Positions 3,482 through 48,962 of a stretch of 64,000 bases of DNA are shown in pieces. The notes beneath the pieces are model-generated. The model made no database searches. It saw only the letters and a program-made list of their open reading frames with translations, and was not told the DNA's origin. A program made the position numbers and the translations under genes. Source of the DNA: Pseudomonas abietaniphila (lineage in GTDB: Bacteria; Pseudomonadota; Gammaproteobacteria; Pseudomonadales; Pseudomonadaceae); assembly GCF_039697315.1 (NCBI RefSeq), contig NZ_CP155619.1:2790001-2854000 (forward strand), given 5' to 3'. Within the stretch, counting starts at the first letter, position 1. Each line of letters starts with the position of its first letter.

Positions 3482-4384
3482 ATGAACGCTGCGGTCGACA
3501 GTGATCTCCCGATGGCCCTGACCCGTACCACCGTGCGCCCGGCCGATCGCCTGGGTTTTACCTTGATGATCGCAGCCCTCGTGCACCTGGCGCTGATCCT
3601 TGGCGTGGGTTTCACCTACGTCAAACCCGAAAAGATCAGCCAGACGCTGGAAATCACCCTCGCCCCCTTCAAGAGCGACACCAAGCCCAAGGACGCTGAC
3701 TTCCTCGCACAGGAAAACCAGCAAGGCAGCGGCACCCTCGACAAGAAGGCCGTGCCCAAGACCACCGAAATCGCACCGTATCAGGACACCAAGATCAACA
3801 AGGTGACGCCTCCGCCCGCTGCCAAACCGGTGATCAAGCAGGAAGCGCCCAAAACGGCCGTCGCCACCAAGGCGCAGGCGCCGCAAAAAACCGTCGCCAA
3901 GCGCGACGAAGTCAAACCCGAAGAGGCGAAGAAAGCCGCGCCCACGTTCGACAGCGCCCAGTTGAACAGCGAAATCGCCAGCCTTGAGGCCGAACTCGCC
4001 GACGAGCAGCAGGCGTACGCCAAGCGTCCGAAGATCCATCGCTTGAGCGCTGCGTCGACCATGCGCGACAAGGGCGCCTGGTACAAAGAGGACTGGCGCA
4101 AGAAGATCGAGCGCATCGGCAACCTCAATTATCCTGAAGAAGCCCGGCGCCAGCAGATCTACGGCAGCCTGCGGATGATGGTGTCGATTAACCGCGACGG
4201 CTCTTTATATGAAGTGCTGGTGCTTGAATCGTCCGGACAGCCGTTGCTGGATCAGGCCGCTCAGAGAATCGTGCGGCTCGCGGCGCCATTTGCGCCGTTT
4301 AGTGGCGACCTGGCTGACATCGACCGGCTCGAGATCATCCGCACCTGGAAGTTTGCCCGCGGGGACAAGCTGTCCAGTAACTGA
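3482..4384 (+). CDS. tonB3: TonB-family energy transducer (TonB3-like)
   Basis: A 300-residue TonB protein: short cytoplasmic N-terminus, one membrane anchor at about residues 24-43, a long Pro/Lys/Glu-rich periplasmic spacer (about 60-150), and a C-terminal TonB domain with YPEEARRQQIYGSLRMMVSI and a final RTWKFARG. TonB proteins pass proton-motive force from ExbB-ExbD to outer-membrane transporters. No exbB or exbD is adjacent. In P. aeruginosa the gene at this position (between gshB and algH) is tonB3, reported to be needed for twitching motility, which fits the pil genes nearby. The ATG at 3482 is chosen; an upstream in-frame start at 3440 is less likely. Confidence 0.88.
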   Translation: MNAAVDSDLPMALTRTTVRPADRLGFTLMIAALVHLALILGVGFTYVKPEKISQTLEITLAPFKSDTKPKDADFLAQENQQGSGTLDKKAVPKTTEIAPYQDTKINKVTPPPAAKPVIKQEAPKTAVATKAQAPQKTVAKRDEVKPEEAKKAAPTFDSAQLNSEIASLEAELADEQQAYAKRPKIHRLSAASTMRDKGAWYKEDWRKKIERIGNLNYPEEARRQQIYGSLRMMVSINRDGSLYEVLVLESSGQPLLDQAAQRIVRLAAPFAPFSGDLADIDRLEIIRTWKFARGDKLSSN

Positions 4385-4417: not shown

Positions 4418-4564
4418 GTAGGAGCGTGGCTTGTGTCTGGGCCGCATTCGGACGATCTGCCGGGTACCGGCAGCAAAACCTGTGAATGCGGTCAATCAGA
4501 CGCATCCTGCTGACCGAATGTGCGACGGGTCCCCCGCCGATCGCGGGACAAGCCACGCTCCTAC
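4418..4564. repeat. REPIN (GTAGGAGCGTGGCTTGTCCC family)
   Basis: Left REP begins at 4418 with GTAGGAGCGTGGCTTGT and the right inverted REP ends at 4564 with GACAAGCCACGCTCCTAC; the arms are 147 bases apart end to end. The interior holds a perfect small hairpin, CTGCCGGGTACCGGCAG, followed by CAAA, also present in the tandem array at 45-46 kb. Same head sequence as the RAYT-linked array. Confidence 0.85.
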
Positions 4565-4630: not shown

Positions 4631-5200
4631 ATGAAAAACGTCACTCCGTCGTACCTCAAGCATCAATTTCTGATCGCCATGCCCCACATGCACGATGAGA
4701 ACTTCGCTCAGACCTTGACCTACATCGTCGAGCACAACGCCAATGGCGCAATGGGTCTGGTGATCAACCGACCGCAAAGCCTGTCGCTGGCGGACATTCT
4801 GGAGCAGTTGCGCCCGGAAATGTCGCCACCCGTTCGCTGTCAGCACATCCCCATTCATGTCGGCGGCCCGGTTCAAACCGATCGCGGTTTTGTCCTGCAC
4901 CCCACCGGCCAGATTTTTCAGGCCACGGTCGATCTGGGCGGCATCTCGCTGTCCACCTCGCAGGACATCCTGTTTTCGATCGCCGACGGCTACGGCCCTG
5001 ATCAAAACTTGATCACCCTGGGCTATGCCGGCTGGGATGCCGGCCAGCTCGAAGCCGAATTTGCCGCCAACGCCTGGCTGAACTGCGCGTTCGACCCCGC
5101 GATTCTGTTCGAACTCGACAGCGAACAGCGGCTCGACGCGGCGGCTGCCAAATTGGGCGTCAACCTGAATCTGCTGACCAGCCAGGCGGGCCACGCCTGA
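4631..5200 (+). CDS. algH: AlgH / YqgE family protein (UPF0301)
   Basis: A 189-residue UPF0301 protein. Family hallmarks are the N-terminal YLKHQFLIAMPHM, then GAMGLVINRP and VHVGGPVQTDRGFVLHP-type segments, and GYAGWDAGQLEAE near the end. AlgH was linked to alginate gene expression in P. aeruginosa, but its biochemical role is not settled. The start is the ATG at 4631; the frame is open upstream but the protein then aligns with the family. Its TGA shares one base with the ATG of ruvX (TGATG), indicating translational coupling. Confidence 0.93.
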   Translation: MKNVTPSYLKHQFLIAMPHMHDENFAQTLTYIVEHNANGAMGLVINRPQSLSLADILEQLRPEMSPPVRCQHIPIHVGGPVQTDRGFVLHPTGQIFQATVDLGGISLSTSQDILFSIADGYGPDQNLITLGYAGWDAGQLEAEFAANAWLNCAFDPAILFELDSEQRLDAAAAKLGVNLNLLTSQAGHA

Positions 5201-5640
5201 TGACCGCACTGCGCCTGCTTCTGGGGTTTGACTACGGCACCAAACAGATCGGCGTCGCTGTCGGCCAGGTCATCACCGGCCAGGCCCGGGAGCTGTGCAC
5301 CCTGAAAGCGCAGAACGGTGTTCCGGACTGGGACAAGGTCCAGGCGCTGATCACCGAGTGGAAGCCTGACGCCATTGTCGTCGGCCTGCCGCTGAACATG
5401 GACGGCACGCCCAGCGAAATGAGCGCTCGCGCCGAGAAATTCTCGCGCAAGCTCAACGGCCGGTTCAACGTGCCCGTCTATACCCATGACGAACGCCTGA
5501 CCACCTTTGAAGCCAAGGGTGAGCGCATGTCGCGCGGCGGGCAGCGTGGCAGCTACCGCGACAACCCGGTGGACGCCATTGCCGCAGCGCTTCTGCTGCA
5601 AGGCTGGCTGGAAGCCAACAGCGCGCTGTTCGACACGTGA
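5200..5640 (+). CDS. ruvX: Putative pre-16S rRNA nuclease / Holliday junction resolvase-like RuvX (YqgF)
   Basis: A 146-residue RNase H-fold protein. The N-terminal LGFDYGTKQIGVAVG carries the first catalytic Asp, VVGLPLNMDG follows near residue 62, and the C-terminal half has THDERLTT with a Glu/Asp pair and RDNPVDAIAAALLLQ. Family members process the 5' end of 16S rRNA. It overlaps algH by one base and lies 93 bases before pyrR, the same order as in P. aeruginosa. Confidence 0.94.
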   Translation: MTALRLLLGFDYGTKQIGVAVGQVITGQARELCTLKAQNGVPDWDKVQALITEWKPDAIVVGLPLNMDGTPSEMSARAEKFSRKLNGRFNVPVYTHDERLTTFEAKGERMSRGGQRGSYRDNPVDAIAAALLLQGWLEANSALFDT

Positions 5641-13459: not shown

Positions 13460-13592
13460 GTGGGAGCGTGGCTTGTCCCGCGATCTGCTGCGCAGCGGCA
13501 GTAAAGGCTAAGAACGAGATCTTCCTGAATGATCTCGCCGCCCGGATTTAGGGGCGCTGCGCACCCCATCGCGGGACAAGCCACGCTCCTAC
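13460..13592. repeat. REPIN (CGTGGCTTGTCCC family)
   Basis: Left arm GTGGGAGCGTGGCTTGTCCC at 13460; right arm GGGACAAGCCACGCTCCTAC ends at 13592, 133 bases in all. It fills most of the 318-base gap between yggT and metX, in which I see no gene. The two arm ends differ at one position (GTGGG against CTAC). Confidence 0.85.
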
Positions 13593-18228: not shown

Positions 18229-19002
18229 TTACGCCAGCTTCTCAAACTTCAAATCCCAAACGCCATGCCCGAGACGCTCGCCACGGCGTTCGAACTTGGT
18301 GATCGGACGCTCCGCAGGGCGCGGGACGCATTTTCCGTCTTCGGCCAGGTTGCGATAACCCGGGGCGACGTTCATCACTTCCAGCATGTATTCGGCGTAC
18401 GGTTCCCAGTCGGTGGCCATGTGCAGAATGCCGCCCGGCTTGAGCTTGCTGCGCACCAGCGCGGCGAACTCGGCCTGAACGATACGACGCTTGTGATGGC
18501 GCGCCTTGTGCCACGGGTCCGGGAAGAACAGCATCAGGCGGTCGAGGCTGTTGTCGGCCACGCAGCGGTTGAGTACCTCAATCGCATCGCAATCGTAGAC
18601 CCGCACGTTGGTCAGGCCCTGCGTCAATACGCCATTCAGCAACGCGCCGACACCCGGACGGTGCACCTCCACGCCGATGAAATCCTGATCAGGTGCAGCG
18701 GCGGCCATCTCCAGCAACGAGTGACCCATGCCAAAGCCGATTTCCAGGGTGCGCGGTGCTGAACGACCGAACACCGCATCGAAATCCACCGGTGCATCGG
18801 CCAGTGGCAGCACGAACAGCGGCTTGCCCTGGTCCAGACCACGCTGTTGGCCTTCGGTCATACGACCGGCGCGCATCACGAAGCTTTTGATGCGCCGATG
18901 ATGGCTGTCATCGCCCTGCTCTTTACCGTCTTCGTCGTTCATCACTTCGTCGTTCATCACTTCGTCGTCCGGAAGTGCATCGGGCTTTTGCGAATCAATC
19001 AT
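18229..19002 (-). CDS. trmB: tRNA (guanine-N7-)-methyltransferase TrmB
   Basis: A 257-residue SAM-dependent enzyme forming m7G46 in tRNA. The SAM motif [14 protein letters not shown] is at about residues 87-100, and the family signature [16 protein letters not shown] near 159; [13 protein letters not shown] follows. The first 45 residues are acidic and poorly conserved, with a short tandem duplication ([12 protein letters not shown]). The ATG at 19002 is used; a TTG lies one codon upstream. It begins 10 bases after thiG on the same strand, so the two are probably co-transcribed. Confidence 0.94.
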
Positions 19003-43741: not shown

Positions 43742-44938
43742 ATGTCCCTGCCTAGCTTGCGCCTCAAGCCCAACGCCGACCGTCGCCTGCGCGCCGGTCA
43801 CCTGTGGATCTACAGCAACGAAATCGACGTTGCCGCCACCCCGCTCAACGGCTTCGCTCCAGGCGCCCAAGCGATTCTGGAAGCAGCGGGCGGCAAGCCG
43901 CTGGGCATCGTCGCCATGAGCCCCAACAACCTGATCTGCGCGCGCTTGCTGTCGCGCGACGTCAAGCTGCCGCTGGACAAGTCGCTGCTGGTGCATCGCC
44001 TGAACGTCTGCCTGTCGCTGCGCGAGCGCCTGTTCGACAAACCTTTTTATCGCCTGGTGTACGGCGACTCCGATCTGTTGCCGGGTCTGGTGGTTGATCG
44101 CTTCGGCGATATCCTGGTGGTGCAACTGGCCTCTGCGACCATGGAACAGCATAAGGACGACGTCCTGGCGGCACTGATCCAGGTGATCAAGCCAAGTGGC
44201 ATTTTGCTGAAGAACGATTCCGCGGCGCGCGACGCCGAGGGCCTGACCCGCTACGTCGAAACCGCCTTCGGCCTGGTGCCTGAGTGGGTGGCGCTGGAAG
44301 AGAACGGCGTGAAATTCGAAGCGCCGGTCATGGAAGGCCAGAAAACCGGCTGGTTCTATGACCACCGCATGAACCGCGCGCGCCTGGCGCCGTACGTCAA
44401 AGGCAAGCGCGTGCTGGACCTGTTCAGCTACATCGGCGGCTGGGGCGTGCAGGCCGGCGCGTTCGGCGCCAGCGAAGTGTTCTGTGTTGACGCCTCGGGG
44501 TTCGCGCTCGATGGTGTTGAACGCAACGCCGGGCTGAACGGCTTTGCGGAGAAGGTCACTTGCATCGAAGGCGATGTGTTTGAAGCACTGAAAGAGTTGA
44601 AAGCCGCTGAAGAGCGCTTCGACGTGATCGTTGCCGATCCGCCTGCGTTCATCAAACGCAAGAAAGACCTGAAGAACGGCGAAGGCGCCTACCGTCGCCT
44701 GAACGAGCAGGCCATGCGCCTGCTGAGCAAAGACGGCATTCTGGTCAGCGCATCCTGCTCGATGCACCTGCCCGAAGACGACCTGCAAAATATCCTCCTG
44801 ACCAGCGCCCGTCATCTGGACCGCAACATCCAGCTGCTGGAACGCGGCGGCCAAGGCCCGGACCACCCGGTACACCCGGCCATCCCGGAAACGCGCTACA
44901 TCAAGAGCATTACGTGCCGGTTGTTGCCGAATAGTTGA
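43742..44938 (+). CDS. rlmI: 23S rRNA (cytosine-C5)-methyltransferase, RlmI-like
   Basis: A 398-residue protein with an N-terminal PUA domain (LRLKPNADRRLRAGHLWIYS) and a class I methyltransferase domain: DLFSYIGGWGVQAGAFGASE near residue 226, VADPPAFIKRKKD near 299, and the Cys-containing SASCSMHL near 337. This layout matches RlmI, which makes m5C1962 in 23S rRNA. CCGGAGCGACGTC precedes the ATG. The tandem repeat array starts 26 bases after its stop. Confidence 0.9.
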   Translation: MSLPSLRLKPNADRRLRAGHLWIYSNEIDVAATPLNGFAPGAQAILEAAGGKPLGIVAMSPNNLICARLLSRDVKLPLDKSLLVHRLNVCLSLRERLFDKPFYRLVYGDSDLLPGLVVDRFGDILVVQLASATMEQHKDDVLAALIQVIKPSGILLKNDSAARDAEGLTRYVETAFGLVPEWVALEENGVKFEAPVMEGQKTGWFYDHRMNRARLAPYVKGKRVLDLFSYIGGWGVQAGAFGASEVFCVDASGFALDGVERNAGLNGFAEKVTCIEGDVFEALKELKAAEERFDVIVADPPAFIKRKKDLKNGEGAYRRLNEQAMRLLSKDGILVSASCSMHLPEDDLQNILLTSARHLDRNIQLLERGGQGPDHPVHPAIPETRYIKSITCRLLPNS

Positions 44939-44963
44939 TAGCAAATCTCCGGGACAAGCTTTT

Positions 44964-46293
44964 GTAGGAGCGTGGCTTGTCCCGCGGTCTGCCGGGAACC
45001 GGCAGTAAATCCAGGCGTTTGCGGTATGTCAGGAAGAGTTCATTCGCAGGGTTTTACCGTTGCTGCGCAACAGATCGCGGGACAAGCCACGCTCCTACAA
45101 TTGACGCTTTCTGGAAACACAACTCCACATGCCCCTATCCCATTAAAAACTCACTTCGGCTGTTGTGCCGAACAGCCTCCCGCCCGCCCTATGGCGATCC
45201 TCTGTAGGAGCGTGGCTTGTCCCGCGATCTGCCGGGAACCGGCAGGAAATCCAGGCATTTGCGGTATGTCAGGAAGAACTCATTCGCTGGATCTACTGTT
45301 GCTGCGCAACAGATCGCGGGACAAACCACGCTCCTACAACTGGCGCTTTCTGGAAACACAACTCCACATGCCCCTATCCCATTAAAAACTCACTTCGGCT
45401 GTTGTGCCGAACAGCCTCCCGCCCGCCCTATGGCGATCCTCTGTAGGAGCGTGGCTTGTCCCGCGATCTGCCGGGAACCGGCAGTAAATCCAGGCATTTG
45501 CGGTATGTCAGGAAGAACTCATTCGCTGGATCTACTGTTGCTGCGCAACAGATCGCGGGACAAGCCACGCTCCTACAATTGGCGCTTTCTGGAAACACAA
45601 CTCCACATGCCCCTATCCCATTAAAAACTCACTTCGGCTGTTGTGCCGAACAGCCTCCCGCCCGCCCTATGGCGATCCTCTGTAGGAGCGTGGCTTGTCC
45701 CGCGATCTGCCGGGAACCGGCAGTAAATCCAGGCATTTGCGGTATGTCAGGAAGAACTCATTCGCTGGATCTACTGTTGCTGCGCAACAGATCGCGGGAC
45801 AAGCCACGCTCCTACAATTGGCGCTTTCTGGAAACACAACTCCACATGCCCCTATCCCATTAAAAACTCACTTCGGCTGTTGTGCCGAACAGCCTCCCGC
45901 CCGCCCTATGGCGATCCTCTGTAGGAGCGTGGCTTGTCCCGCGATCTGCCGGGAACCGGCAGTAAATCCAGGCATTTGCGGTATGTCAGGAAGAACTCAT
46001 TCGCTGGATCTACTGTTGCTGCGCAACAGATCGCGGGACAAGCCACGCTCCTACAACTGGCGCTTTCTGGAAACACAACTCCACATGCCCCTATCCCATT
46101 AAAAACTCACTTCGGCTGTTGTGCCGAACAGCCTCCCCCCGCCCTATGGCGATCCTCTGTAGGAGCGTGGCTTGTCCCGCGATCTGCCGGGGAACCGGCA
46201 GTAAATCCAGGCATTTGCGGTATGTCAGGAAGATCTCATTCGCTGGATCTACTGTTGCTGCGCAACAGATCGCGGGACAAGCCACGCTCCTAC
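44964..46293. repeat. Six tandem REPINs in a 239-bp repeating unit
   Basis: Six REPINs begin at 44964, 45204, 45443, 45682, 45921 and 46159 (steps 240, 239, 239, 239, 238). Each is about 135 bases: left arm GTAGGAGCGTGGCTTGTCCC, interior with hairpin CTGCCGG-GAA-CCGGCAG and, in copies 2-6, CTGTTGC-TGC-GCAACAG, then right arm GGGACAAGCCACGCTCCTAC. Five linkers of about 104 bases are nearly identical and carry the palindrome TTCGGC-N6-GCCGAA. Copy 1 is the most diverged; copies 3-5 are almost the same. No promoter or gene is supported inside; the open frames it contains are by-products of the repeat. Confidence 0.95.
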
Positions 46294-46382
46294 AATTGGC
46301 GCTTTCTGACACACAATTTCGCGAGCCCATCGATTCTTGGCCGCTAACGTTACCCTCAACGCTGATTAACGAGGGCAACGGA

Positions 46383-46844
46383 ATGTCTGAGATGTCACCC
46401 GGAGGCAATCGCCTCCGCTTTGGGCGTTACTCCGAAAGCGGACGTATTTATCTACTAACCAGCGTTACACGAGATCGCACACCGTTTTTCGGCGACTGGC
46501 GGATGGGTCGATTGCTCGTGAATGCTTTCCGCCAAGCAGAAGAAGAAAGAGCAGCCCGATCGTTAGCATGGGTTGTCATGCCCGACCATTTCCATTGGTT
46601 AGTGGAGCTCCAGGATGCCCATCTTGCTGTCTTGATGTGCAAAACCAAGTCGCGCACCGTAAGGGCGTTAAACCATGCGACCGGAAGCCATCATCGCCTT
46701 TGGCAAAAGGGTTATCACGACCGAGCAGTTCGACGAGAGGAGGATCTGCAAGCAATTGCACGCTACATCGTCATGAACCCGGTCAGAGCAGGGCTAGCCA
46801 GGCGGGTGCACGACTACCCTCTGTGGGATGCTATCTGGATCTGA
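46383..46844 (+). CDS. REP-associated tyrosine transposase (RAYT)
   Basis: A 153-residue Y1 HUH transposase of the IS200/IS605-related TnpA-REP family. The HUH motif is VMPDHFHWLVE (His69, His71) and the catalytic Tyr is at 128 in IARYIVMNPVRAGLA; FRQAEEERAARSLAW and LWQKGYHDRAVR are further family blocks. RAYTs cut and join single-stranded REP DNA and are thought to spread REPINs. The six-REPIN array ends 89 bases upstream and a single REP starts 16 bases after its stop. The ATG at 46383 is chosen with AGGGCAACGGA before it; the frame stays open back to 46119 through the last REPIN. Confidence 0.92.
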   Translation: MSEMSPGGNRLRFGRYSESGRIYLLTSVTRDRTPFFGDWRMGRLLVNAFRQAEEERAARSLAWVVMPDHFHWLVELQDAHLAVLMCKTKSRTVRALNHATGSHHRLWQKGYHDRAVRREEDLQAIARYIVMNPVRAGLARRVHDYPLWDAIWI

Positions 46845-46860
46845 GGCAGTCTCTCGATCC

Positions 46861-46885
46861 ATCGCGGGACAAGCCACGCTCCTAC
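46861..46885. repeat. Solitary REP behind the RAYT gene
   Basis: A single right-arm REP, GGGACAAGCCACGCTCCTAC ending at 46885, of the same head sequence as the upstream array. With the array it brackets the RAYT gene. The rest of the 270-base gap to ilvD shows no gene. Confidence 0.88.
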
Positions 46886-47114
46886 AGGGTTCTGTGTACG
46901 CCACAAGATTTCTTGCCCATTCCCTCCCGCCGCCACAGGTGTAGAATCAGCGCTATTCATCGCCAGTCATCCCCGGCGGGTTTATGAGCTCAGGCTGAGC
47001 GTACGGTGATCCCGTGTCGTTCGGTTTCTTCGCTGCATCCGGTCACTGCCTTTGCATCCGACGTCACTAGAAGCTCACTCCCTTCCTTATTAGCCGATTA
47101 GCCGGAGTGCTCCA

Positions 47115-48962
47115 ATGCCTGATTACCGTTCGAAAACGTCTACCCACGGCCGTAACATGGCCGGCGCGCGCGCTCTGTGGCGTGCCACGGGCATGAAGGA
47201 CGAAGACTTCAAGAAGCCGATCATCGCCATCGCCAACTCGTTCACCCAGTTCGTACCGGGTCACGTGCACCTCAAGGATCTGGGCCAGCTGGTCGCCCGC
47301 GAGATTGAAAAGGCAGGCGGCGTCGCCAAGGAATTCAACACCATCGCCGTGGATGACGGCATCGCCATGGGCCACGACGGCATGCTGTACTCGCTGCCGA
47401 GCCGCGAGATCATCGCCGACTCCGTGGAGTACATGGTCAACGCCCACTGCGCCGACGCCATCGTCTGCATCTCCAACTGCGACAAGATCACCCCCGGCAT
47501 GCTGATGGCGGCTCTGCGCCTGAACATCCCGGTGATCTTCGTCTCAGGCGGCCCGATGGAAGCCGGCAAGACCAAACTCGCCAGCCACGGCCTGGACCTG
47601 GTCGACGCCATGGTCATCGCCGCTGACTCCAGCGCTTCCGACGAGAAAGTCGCCGAGTACGAGCGCAGCGCTTGCCCGACTTGCGGTTCGTGCTCCGGCA
47701 TGTTCACCGCCAACTCGATGAACTGCCTGACCGAAGCCCTGGGCCTCGCCCTGCCAGGCAACGGTTCGACCCTGGCCACGCACAGTGATCGCGAGCAATT
47801 GTTCCTGCAAGCCGGCCGCACCATCGTCGACCTGTGCAAAACCTACTACCGCGATAACGATGACTCGGTTCTGCCGCGCAACATCGCCAACTTCAAAGCG
47901 TTCGAAAACGCAATGACGCTGGACATCGCCATGGGTGGTTCGACCAACACCATCCTTCACCTGCTGGCAGCCGCCCAGGAAGCAGAGATCGACTTCGACC
48001 TGCGTGATATCGACCGTCTGTCGCGCAAAGTGCCGCAGCTGTGCAAAGTCGCGCCGAACATCCAGAAGTACCACATGGAAGACGTCCACCGCGCGGGCGG
48101 CATCTTCAGCATCCTGGGTTCGCTGGCCCGTGGTGGCCTGCTGCACACCGACCTGCCCACCGTGCACGCTAAATCCATGGAAGAAGCGATCGCGAAGTGG
48201 GACATCACCCAGACCGACGACGAAGCGGTTCATCACTTCTTCAAAGCGGGCCCGGCAGGCATCCCGACGCAAACCGCGTTCAGCCAGTCGACACGCTGGG
48301 AAACCCTGGACGACGACCGTGAAAACGGCTGTATCCGCAGTGTCGAGCATGCTTACTCGCAGGAAGGCGGTCTCGCCGTGCTGTACGGAAATATCGCGCT
48401 GGACGGTTGCGTGGTGAAAACCGCAGGCGTTGACGAGTCGATCCATGTGTTCGAAGGCAACGCGAAAATCTTCGAAAGCCAGGACAGCGCCGTTCGCGGC
48501 ATCCTCGCTGACGAAGTGAAAGCCGGCGACATCGTGATCATCCGTTACGAAGGCCCGAAAGGCGGTCCGGGCATGCAGGAAATGCTCTACCCGACGTCGT
48601 ACCTGAAATCCAAAGGCCTGGGCAAAGCCTGCGCACTGTTGACCGACGGACGTTTCTCGGGCGGCACTTCGGGCCTGTCCATCGGCCACGCTTCGCCTGA
48701 AGCGGCAGCCGGCGGCGCAATCGGTCTGGTGCGCGATGGCGACAAAGTGCTGATCGACATTCCAAACCGTGGGATCAATCTGTTGATCTCCGACGAGGAA
48801 ATGGCGGCCCGTCGTGCCGAGCAGGACAAGAAAGGCTGGAAGCCTGTCGAATCGCGTCCTCGCAAGGTCACCACCGCCCTCAAGGCATACGCCCTGCTCG
48901 CGACCAGCGCCGACAAAGGCGCTGTACGCGATAAAGCCCTGCTGGACAAGCTGGTGCCATAA
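47115..48962 (+). CDS. ilvD: Dihydroxy-acid dehydratase
   Basis: A 615-residue Fe-S dehydratase of branched-chain amino acid synthesis, converting dihydroxy-isovalerate and dihydroxy-methylvalerate to keto acids. Cluster and active-site motifs: [12 protein letters not shown] near residue 119, [17 protein letters not shown] near 192, and [20 protein letters not shown] near 512. Standard length. GGAGTGCTCCA lies before the ATG. A strong terminator follows. Confidence 0.97.

Follow-up and report, generated by a model that had tools for sequence, protein, structure and literature searches.

The stretch of Pseudomonas abietaniphila DNA analysed here (the window, 64,000 nucleotides, corresponding to positions 2,790,001-2,854,000 of a single-contig genome of 6,552,522 bases) contains a gene for a RAYT, or REP-associated tyrosine transposase, directly preceded by a tandem array of six REPINs, the hairpin-forming inverted doublets of repetitive extragenic palindromic (REP) sequences. 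Very probably, this locus is an ordinary RAYT-REPIN system in which the REPIN located beside the RAYT has been locally multiplied through recombination or slippage. That REPIN and linker were amplified locally and together is well supported by the regular spacing and near-identity of the copies. The array is a real structure of an already well-described kind, and its arrangement is in print in the available text of PMC3116915.

Structure of the array

The array spans positions 44964-46293 and is formed by six REPINs (134-135 bp) alternating with five near-identical linkers (104-105 bp), with a period of 238-240 bp. Successive REPIN starts are separated by 240, 239, 239, 239, and 238 bases, and Tandem Repeats Finder (TRF) reports a single array at 44963-46316, with a period of 239, 5.7 copies, and 97% matches. 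Each REPIN consists of two inverted copies of the head GTAGGAGCGTGGCTTGTCCC, which stand at a set spacing on either side of an interior folding into a long hairpin; the folding energy of REPIN 2 is -75.7 kcal/mol under RNA parameters. REPIN and flanking sequence are repeated together next to a RAYT, whose start codon lies 89 bases past REPIN 6, and the locus thus has both features of an ordered tandem REPIN cluster. Comparison of the five complete units of REPIN plus linker shows that units 3 and 4 are identical and that any two of units 2-5 are separated by 0-3 differences, versus 10-13 between unit 1 and the other four, as expected if the inner copies arose last.

The preliminary description of this DNA, made from its letters, had recognised six REPINs in a unit of about 239 bp directly upstream of a RAYT with complete HUH and Tyr motifs, and had proposed that REPIN plus linker were amplified locally as one unit. 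The coordinates and TRF agree with the former, and the period, the spacings, and the near-identical units uphold the latter. The single REP with the array head that it placed directly behind the RAYT is present, as are the solitary REPINs that it noted near 4.4 and 13.5 kb (4418-4564 and 13460-13592, whose left heads carry 2 and 1 mismatches, respectively). The linkers, described there as identical and 104 bases long, are near-identical, with a length that varies between 104 and 105 bp.

The number of copies was read from the assembled sequence alone, and the identity of units 3 and 4 could be taken as a sign of an assembly artefact. However, the remaining units show differences and lengths of their own, and the genome was assembled as one contig, which argues against a draft-assembly collapse. 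An artefactual copy number is therefore extremely improbable.

Every linker also holds a terminator-like hairpin on the minus strand, with the structure TTCGGC-loop-GCCGAA followed by GTGAGTTTTT, at positions 45155-45172, 45394-45411, 45633-45650, 45872-45889, and 46111-46128. Two further readings of the array were discarded. A coding role was rejected, as the open reading frames across it are mechanical and the 239-base period is no multiple of three. The only Rfam match in 44900-47120, MIR3454, scores 27.4 bits where the gathering score is 142, and was attributed to a chance resemblance to the long hairpin.

The RAYT protein

The RAYT is intact and matches the profile NF047646 (REP-associated tyrosine transposase) at 157.2 bits, over a cut-off of 80, and Y1_Tnp (PF01797) at 39 bits, over a cut-off of 23. 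The HxH motif (HFH, His69/His71) and the catalytic Tyr128, with residue numbers counted by hand on the translation, are in register with those of the solved TnpAREP 4ER8. The protein resembles both the NF047646 family and 4ER8 in its HxH and Tyr motifs, its similar length, and the presence of cognate REPs on both flanks, with six REPINs upstream and one REP downstream, and is found as a distinct single copy. On the other hand, it is a distant homologue of 4ER8 (39.5 bits), and REP recognition, which is treated for TnpAREP in the available text of PMC8266576, is putative for the window RAYT. The best 80 RAYT relatives listed among the species genomes all come from Pseudomonas records.

The genome encodes three RAYTs in total, and the other two are 60% identical to the one in the window. 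The RAYT at 5412573 (L120, about 5.41 Mb) has tandem arrays on both sides, at 3672-4022 and 4804-5464 of that locus, with periods of 150 and 164 bp and a different repeat containing GTGGGAGCTGCTGGAGGTTACGAC. A second RAYT (L119, about 344.6 kb) has nearby REPs of another type, and the interior of its REPIN resembles by eye that of the window family, which suggests two heads sharing one interior.

Orthologous loci and the probable order of amplification

Between the flanking genes, the order in the window is 23S rRNA methyltransferase-like gene, six REPINs, RAYT, and ilvD. In two relatives, Pseudomonas sp. SLFW (L005) and G182 (L166), the orthologous locus consists of the methyltransferase gene, one single REPIN with the same head, a RAYT 78% and 80% identical to that of the window, respectively, and ilvD. 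In Pseudomonas sp. NFACC02, whose RAYT is 87% identical, the methyltransferase gene lies on a contig that begins within a REPIN adjoining that gene, and the RAYT on one that begins within sequence resembling the end of the linker, followed by a REPIN. Over 54 aligned positions, the linker-like stretch has 46 identities (its score of 66 compares with a maximum of 21 from 500 shuffles), and the two contig-end REPINs have the same orientation as each other, suggesting that at least two REPINs flank a linker there, in a repeat left unresolved by the assembly. The three loci with a RAYT 78-87% identical to that of the window (L004, L005, and L166) all carry the same head.

The most likely route to the present array would start from an ancestral locus with the rRNA methyltransferase gene, one REPIN, the RAYT, and ilvD. 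This locus would have gained a second REPIN plus linker; the first 24 bases of the linker resemble the RAYT leader. Two direct REPINs flanking a linker would then offer the homology required for unequal recombination or replication slippage, yielding a series of n units of REPIN plus linker. Judging by the published family, the RAYT presumably nicks and rejoins single-stranded REP DNA, and probably spreads individual REPINs in trans while leaving the linker behind. Recombination as the route, the succession of these events, and RAYT action on the REP of the window are inferred as the most likely course. In the available text of PMC8049555, tandem REPINs are treated as locally amplified or deleted, and mutation-accumulation data from E. 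coli include the loss of five of six copies from a tandem REPIN cluster.

Several observations weigh against this history. The arrangement in NFACC02 is read from two contig ends rather than from closed sequence, and its REPINs are opposite in orientation to those of the window. More broadly, the REPIN interior is opposite to that of the window array in L004, L005, and L157 (SLFW and NFACC02) and the same in L166 (G182), which suggests that inversion or replacement of the REPIN also happened at the methyltransferase-RAYT site. The genus sample, composed of one genome per species, limits the view of copy-number variation within species. Lastly, the pairing of RAYT and head is not strict across the genus. 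Of 398 genomes, the own one included, nine contain the 26-base head. Among the other eight, it lies beside a fetched RAYT locus in three (G182, G348, and G386), was not seen beside the RAYT loci fetched in four (G068, G184, G152, and G235), and is present in G195, which has no RAYT match; this survey covers 15 of the 25 RAYT matches of the eight genomes, with 10 not fetched. Conversely, seven of the eight comparison genomes without the head have RAYT matches, the best ones at 49-60% identity. This speaks for the absence of a strict one-to-one pairing at such similarity, or else for loss or change of RAYTs.

Tandem arrays in the genome and across the genus

The exact 20-base head is found in 182 copies (90 + 92) across the genome, and 47 REPINs have both heads perfect, so that the family is dispersed and present in high copy number. 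This abundance is not due to chance, because the pattern read backwards occurs 0 + 0 times. When the first 100 of the 182 head places were clustered at 400 bp, they gave 35 singles, 23 pairs, two clusters of four, and the window array, which is the largest cluster among them with 11 exact heads. Eight further stretches were examined since their matches lay close together. Six of them are tandem arrays of the same family (L087, L091, L096, L097, L116, and L117), which have periods between 132 and 387 bp and comprise roughly 2 to 4 copies; no REPIN-sized period was seen in the remaining two (L095 and L099). None of the three RAYTs of the genome sits at these six arrays, so that amplification needs no neighbouring RAYT.

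Tandem repeats with a period of at least 60 were found within 1.5 kb of the RAYT in 13 of 80 RAYT loci from the species genomes, and in none of the outer parts of the same 80 loci. Since the outer parts were not chosen to contain comparable REPIN-bearing intergenic DNA, they are no fair control for RAYT-specific array formation. Because six same-family arrays exist away from RAYTs in the window's genome, the counts do not establish an enrichment at RAYTs beyond that at REPIN sites generally. The highest TRF scores belong to L007 (10.8 copies of 110 bases, 96%) and L012 (12.6 copies of 94 bases, 78%). A pattern search of the array units detected REP heads in 10 of the 13 loci; it detected none in L022 and L082 and nothing convincing in L083. 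The 13 loci are not all independent, as 144 of 146 residues are the same in the RAYTs of L006 and L007. Arrays may also be under-counted, since in 10 of the 80 loci the contig ends no more than 750 bp from the RAYT. In 29 further loci from relatives (L127-L155), such a period appeared in two (L143 and L147), with an evident REP head in L143 only. Another RAYT of G182 (L193) lies beside a tandem array at 642-1491 of that locus, with a period of 203, 4.2 copies, and a different head, GTAGGAGCGCGCTTGCCCGCGAA.

It could also be that RAYTs themselves drive the tandem growth of REPINs beside their own gene, for instance if they nick single-stranded REPs at the replication fork and rejoin them. In that case, arrays next to RAYTs would arise as a by-product of transposase activity or act as a self-limiting sink for it. 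We regard this as quite improbable.

The array as a proposed donor site

The preliminary description had further suggested that the array is the donor site for spread through the genome, with the RAYT preferentially mobilising its REPINs, with or without the linker. The position of the array beside the RAYT, the dispersal of the same head genome-wide, and the recurrence of RAYT-adjacent arrays in 13 of 80 related loci are in line with this proposal, but the comparison of the copies did not bear it out. A genome-wide search for the linker gives five matches, every one of them inside the array; a search of 397 further genomes of the genus, scoring no more than two candidate stretches in each, gives none. 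Outside the array, the nearest REPIN has 84% identity across its full length, and the interiors of the array REPINs reach a maximum identity of 0.767 to any of 44 sampled outside REPINs, whereas values of up to 0.93 are seen between unlinked REPINs elsewhere. When all 50 REPINs compared are ranked by their mean similarity to REPINs over 5 kb distant, the array members take places 27, 28, 29, 30, 32, and 37.

This comparison involved 50 REPINs extracted by pattern from 38 stretches plus the window, a sample of the REPINs of the genome. Of the stretches, 33 were picked because they resembled an array REPIN, and the other 5 were drawn from the list of heads, a choice that favours the donor idea and makes the negative result conservative. 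The identities and ranks therefore indicate that the sampled REPINs are unlike recent offspring of the array. Moreover, G182 holds 95 copies (47 + 48) of the 26-base head with one REPIN at its 80%-identical RAYT. Taken with the array-confined linker and the REPIN comparison, this makes the donor role highly unlikely, although an old one, predating the present letters of the array, may have existed.

Possible functions and known systems

Alternatively, the array could have been selected for function, with its hairpins regulating or insulating the RAYT, the upstream methyltransferase gene, or ilvD through transcript stability, termination, or the binding of gyrase or integration host factor (IHF). 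Bertels and Rainey propose functional roles for such clusters in the available text of PMC3116915, arrays beside RAYTs recur, and five terminator-like hairpins are found in the linkers versus 1.3 (standard deviation 1.2) in shuffles, although they represent one site repeated five times. Against this, the orthologous loci of two relatives make do with a single REPIN, no sigma-70-like promoter was found in 44900-46450, and arrays also occur far from RAYTs. Selection for function is thus unlikely, and local multiplication remains the preferred explanation.

The best match among described systems is Pseudomonas fluorescens SBW25, which, according to the available text of Bertels and Rainey 2011 (PMC3116915), has ordered tandem REPIN clusters, one beside each of its three RAYTs. 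As in the window, these clusters adjoin a RAYT with the matching REP type, and their inverted REP doublets form hairpins. They have another REP head, however, and the largest ordered cluster consists of four REPINs and one REP over 700 bp, compared with six REPINs in about 1.33 kb here. Nunvar et al. 2013 (PMC3686654) describe 22 REP classes of fluorescent pseudomonads (PF1-PF22). The window REPs share the GTAG/GTGG tag with them, and by eye the head is closest to PF21 and PF19, but GTAGGAGCGTGGCTTGTCCCGCGATC is not among the 22 sequences in Table 1 of that paper and so does not belong to PF1-PF22 as an exact head. The 20-base head appeared in no paper of the literature searched, a search that sequences given only in figures or supplements would escape.

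Features of the locus

The features of the locus are collected in Table 1. Elsewhere in the window, a short tandem repeat with a 15-base unit and 2.6 copies is found at 18930-18968.

Table 1. Coordinates of the REPIN array, the RAYT gene, and the flanking genes, in window positions.
Feature	Position	Strand	Remarks
23S rRNA methyltransferase-like gene	43742-44938		Pfam PF10672 and PUA_3; NCBIfam matches all under their cut-offs
REPIN 1, 135 bp, most divergent copy	44964..45098	+	unit 1 versus units 2-5: 10-13 differences
Linker 1, 105 bp	45099..45203	+	
REPIN 2	45204..45337	+	right REP with one mismatch
Linker 2, 105 bp	45338..45442	+	
REPIN 3	45443..45576	+	100% identity to REPINs 4 and 5
Linker 3, 105 bp	45577..45681	+	
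REPIN 4	45682..45815	+	100% identity to REPINs 3 and 5
Linker 4, 105 bp	45816..45920	+	
REPIN 5	45921..46054	+	100% identity to REPINs 3 and 4
Linker 5, 104 bp	46055..46158	+	
REPIN 6, 135 bp	46159..46293	+	
RAYT leader, first 23 bases	46294..46316	+	resembles first 24 bases of linker; local alignment
RAYT (TnpAREP), 153 aa	46383..46844	+	NF047646, PF01797, 4ER8 alignment
Single REP with array head, downstream of RAYT	46866..46885	-	
ilvD	47115-48962		

Implications

This locus adds a further large and clean example of a tandem REPIN cluster beside a RAYT; its head was absent from the literature searched. It also allows the idea that such an array acts as a donor to be tested simply from sequence, with an outcome against it. 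In addition, the existence of one-REPIN, probably two-or-more-REPIN, and six-REPIN states at one conserved locus suggests the order in which the amplification took place.
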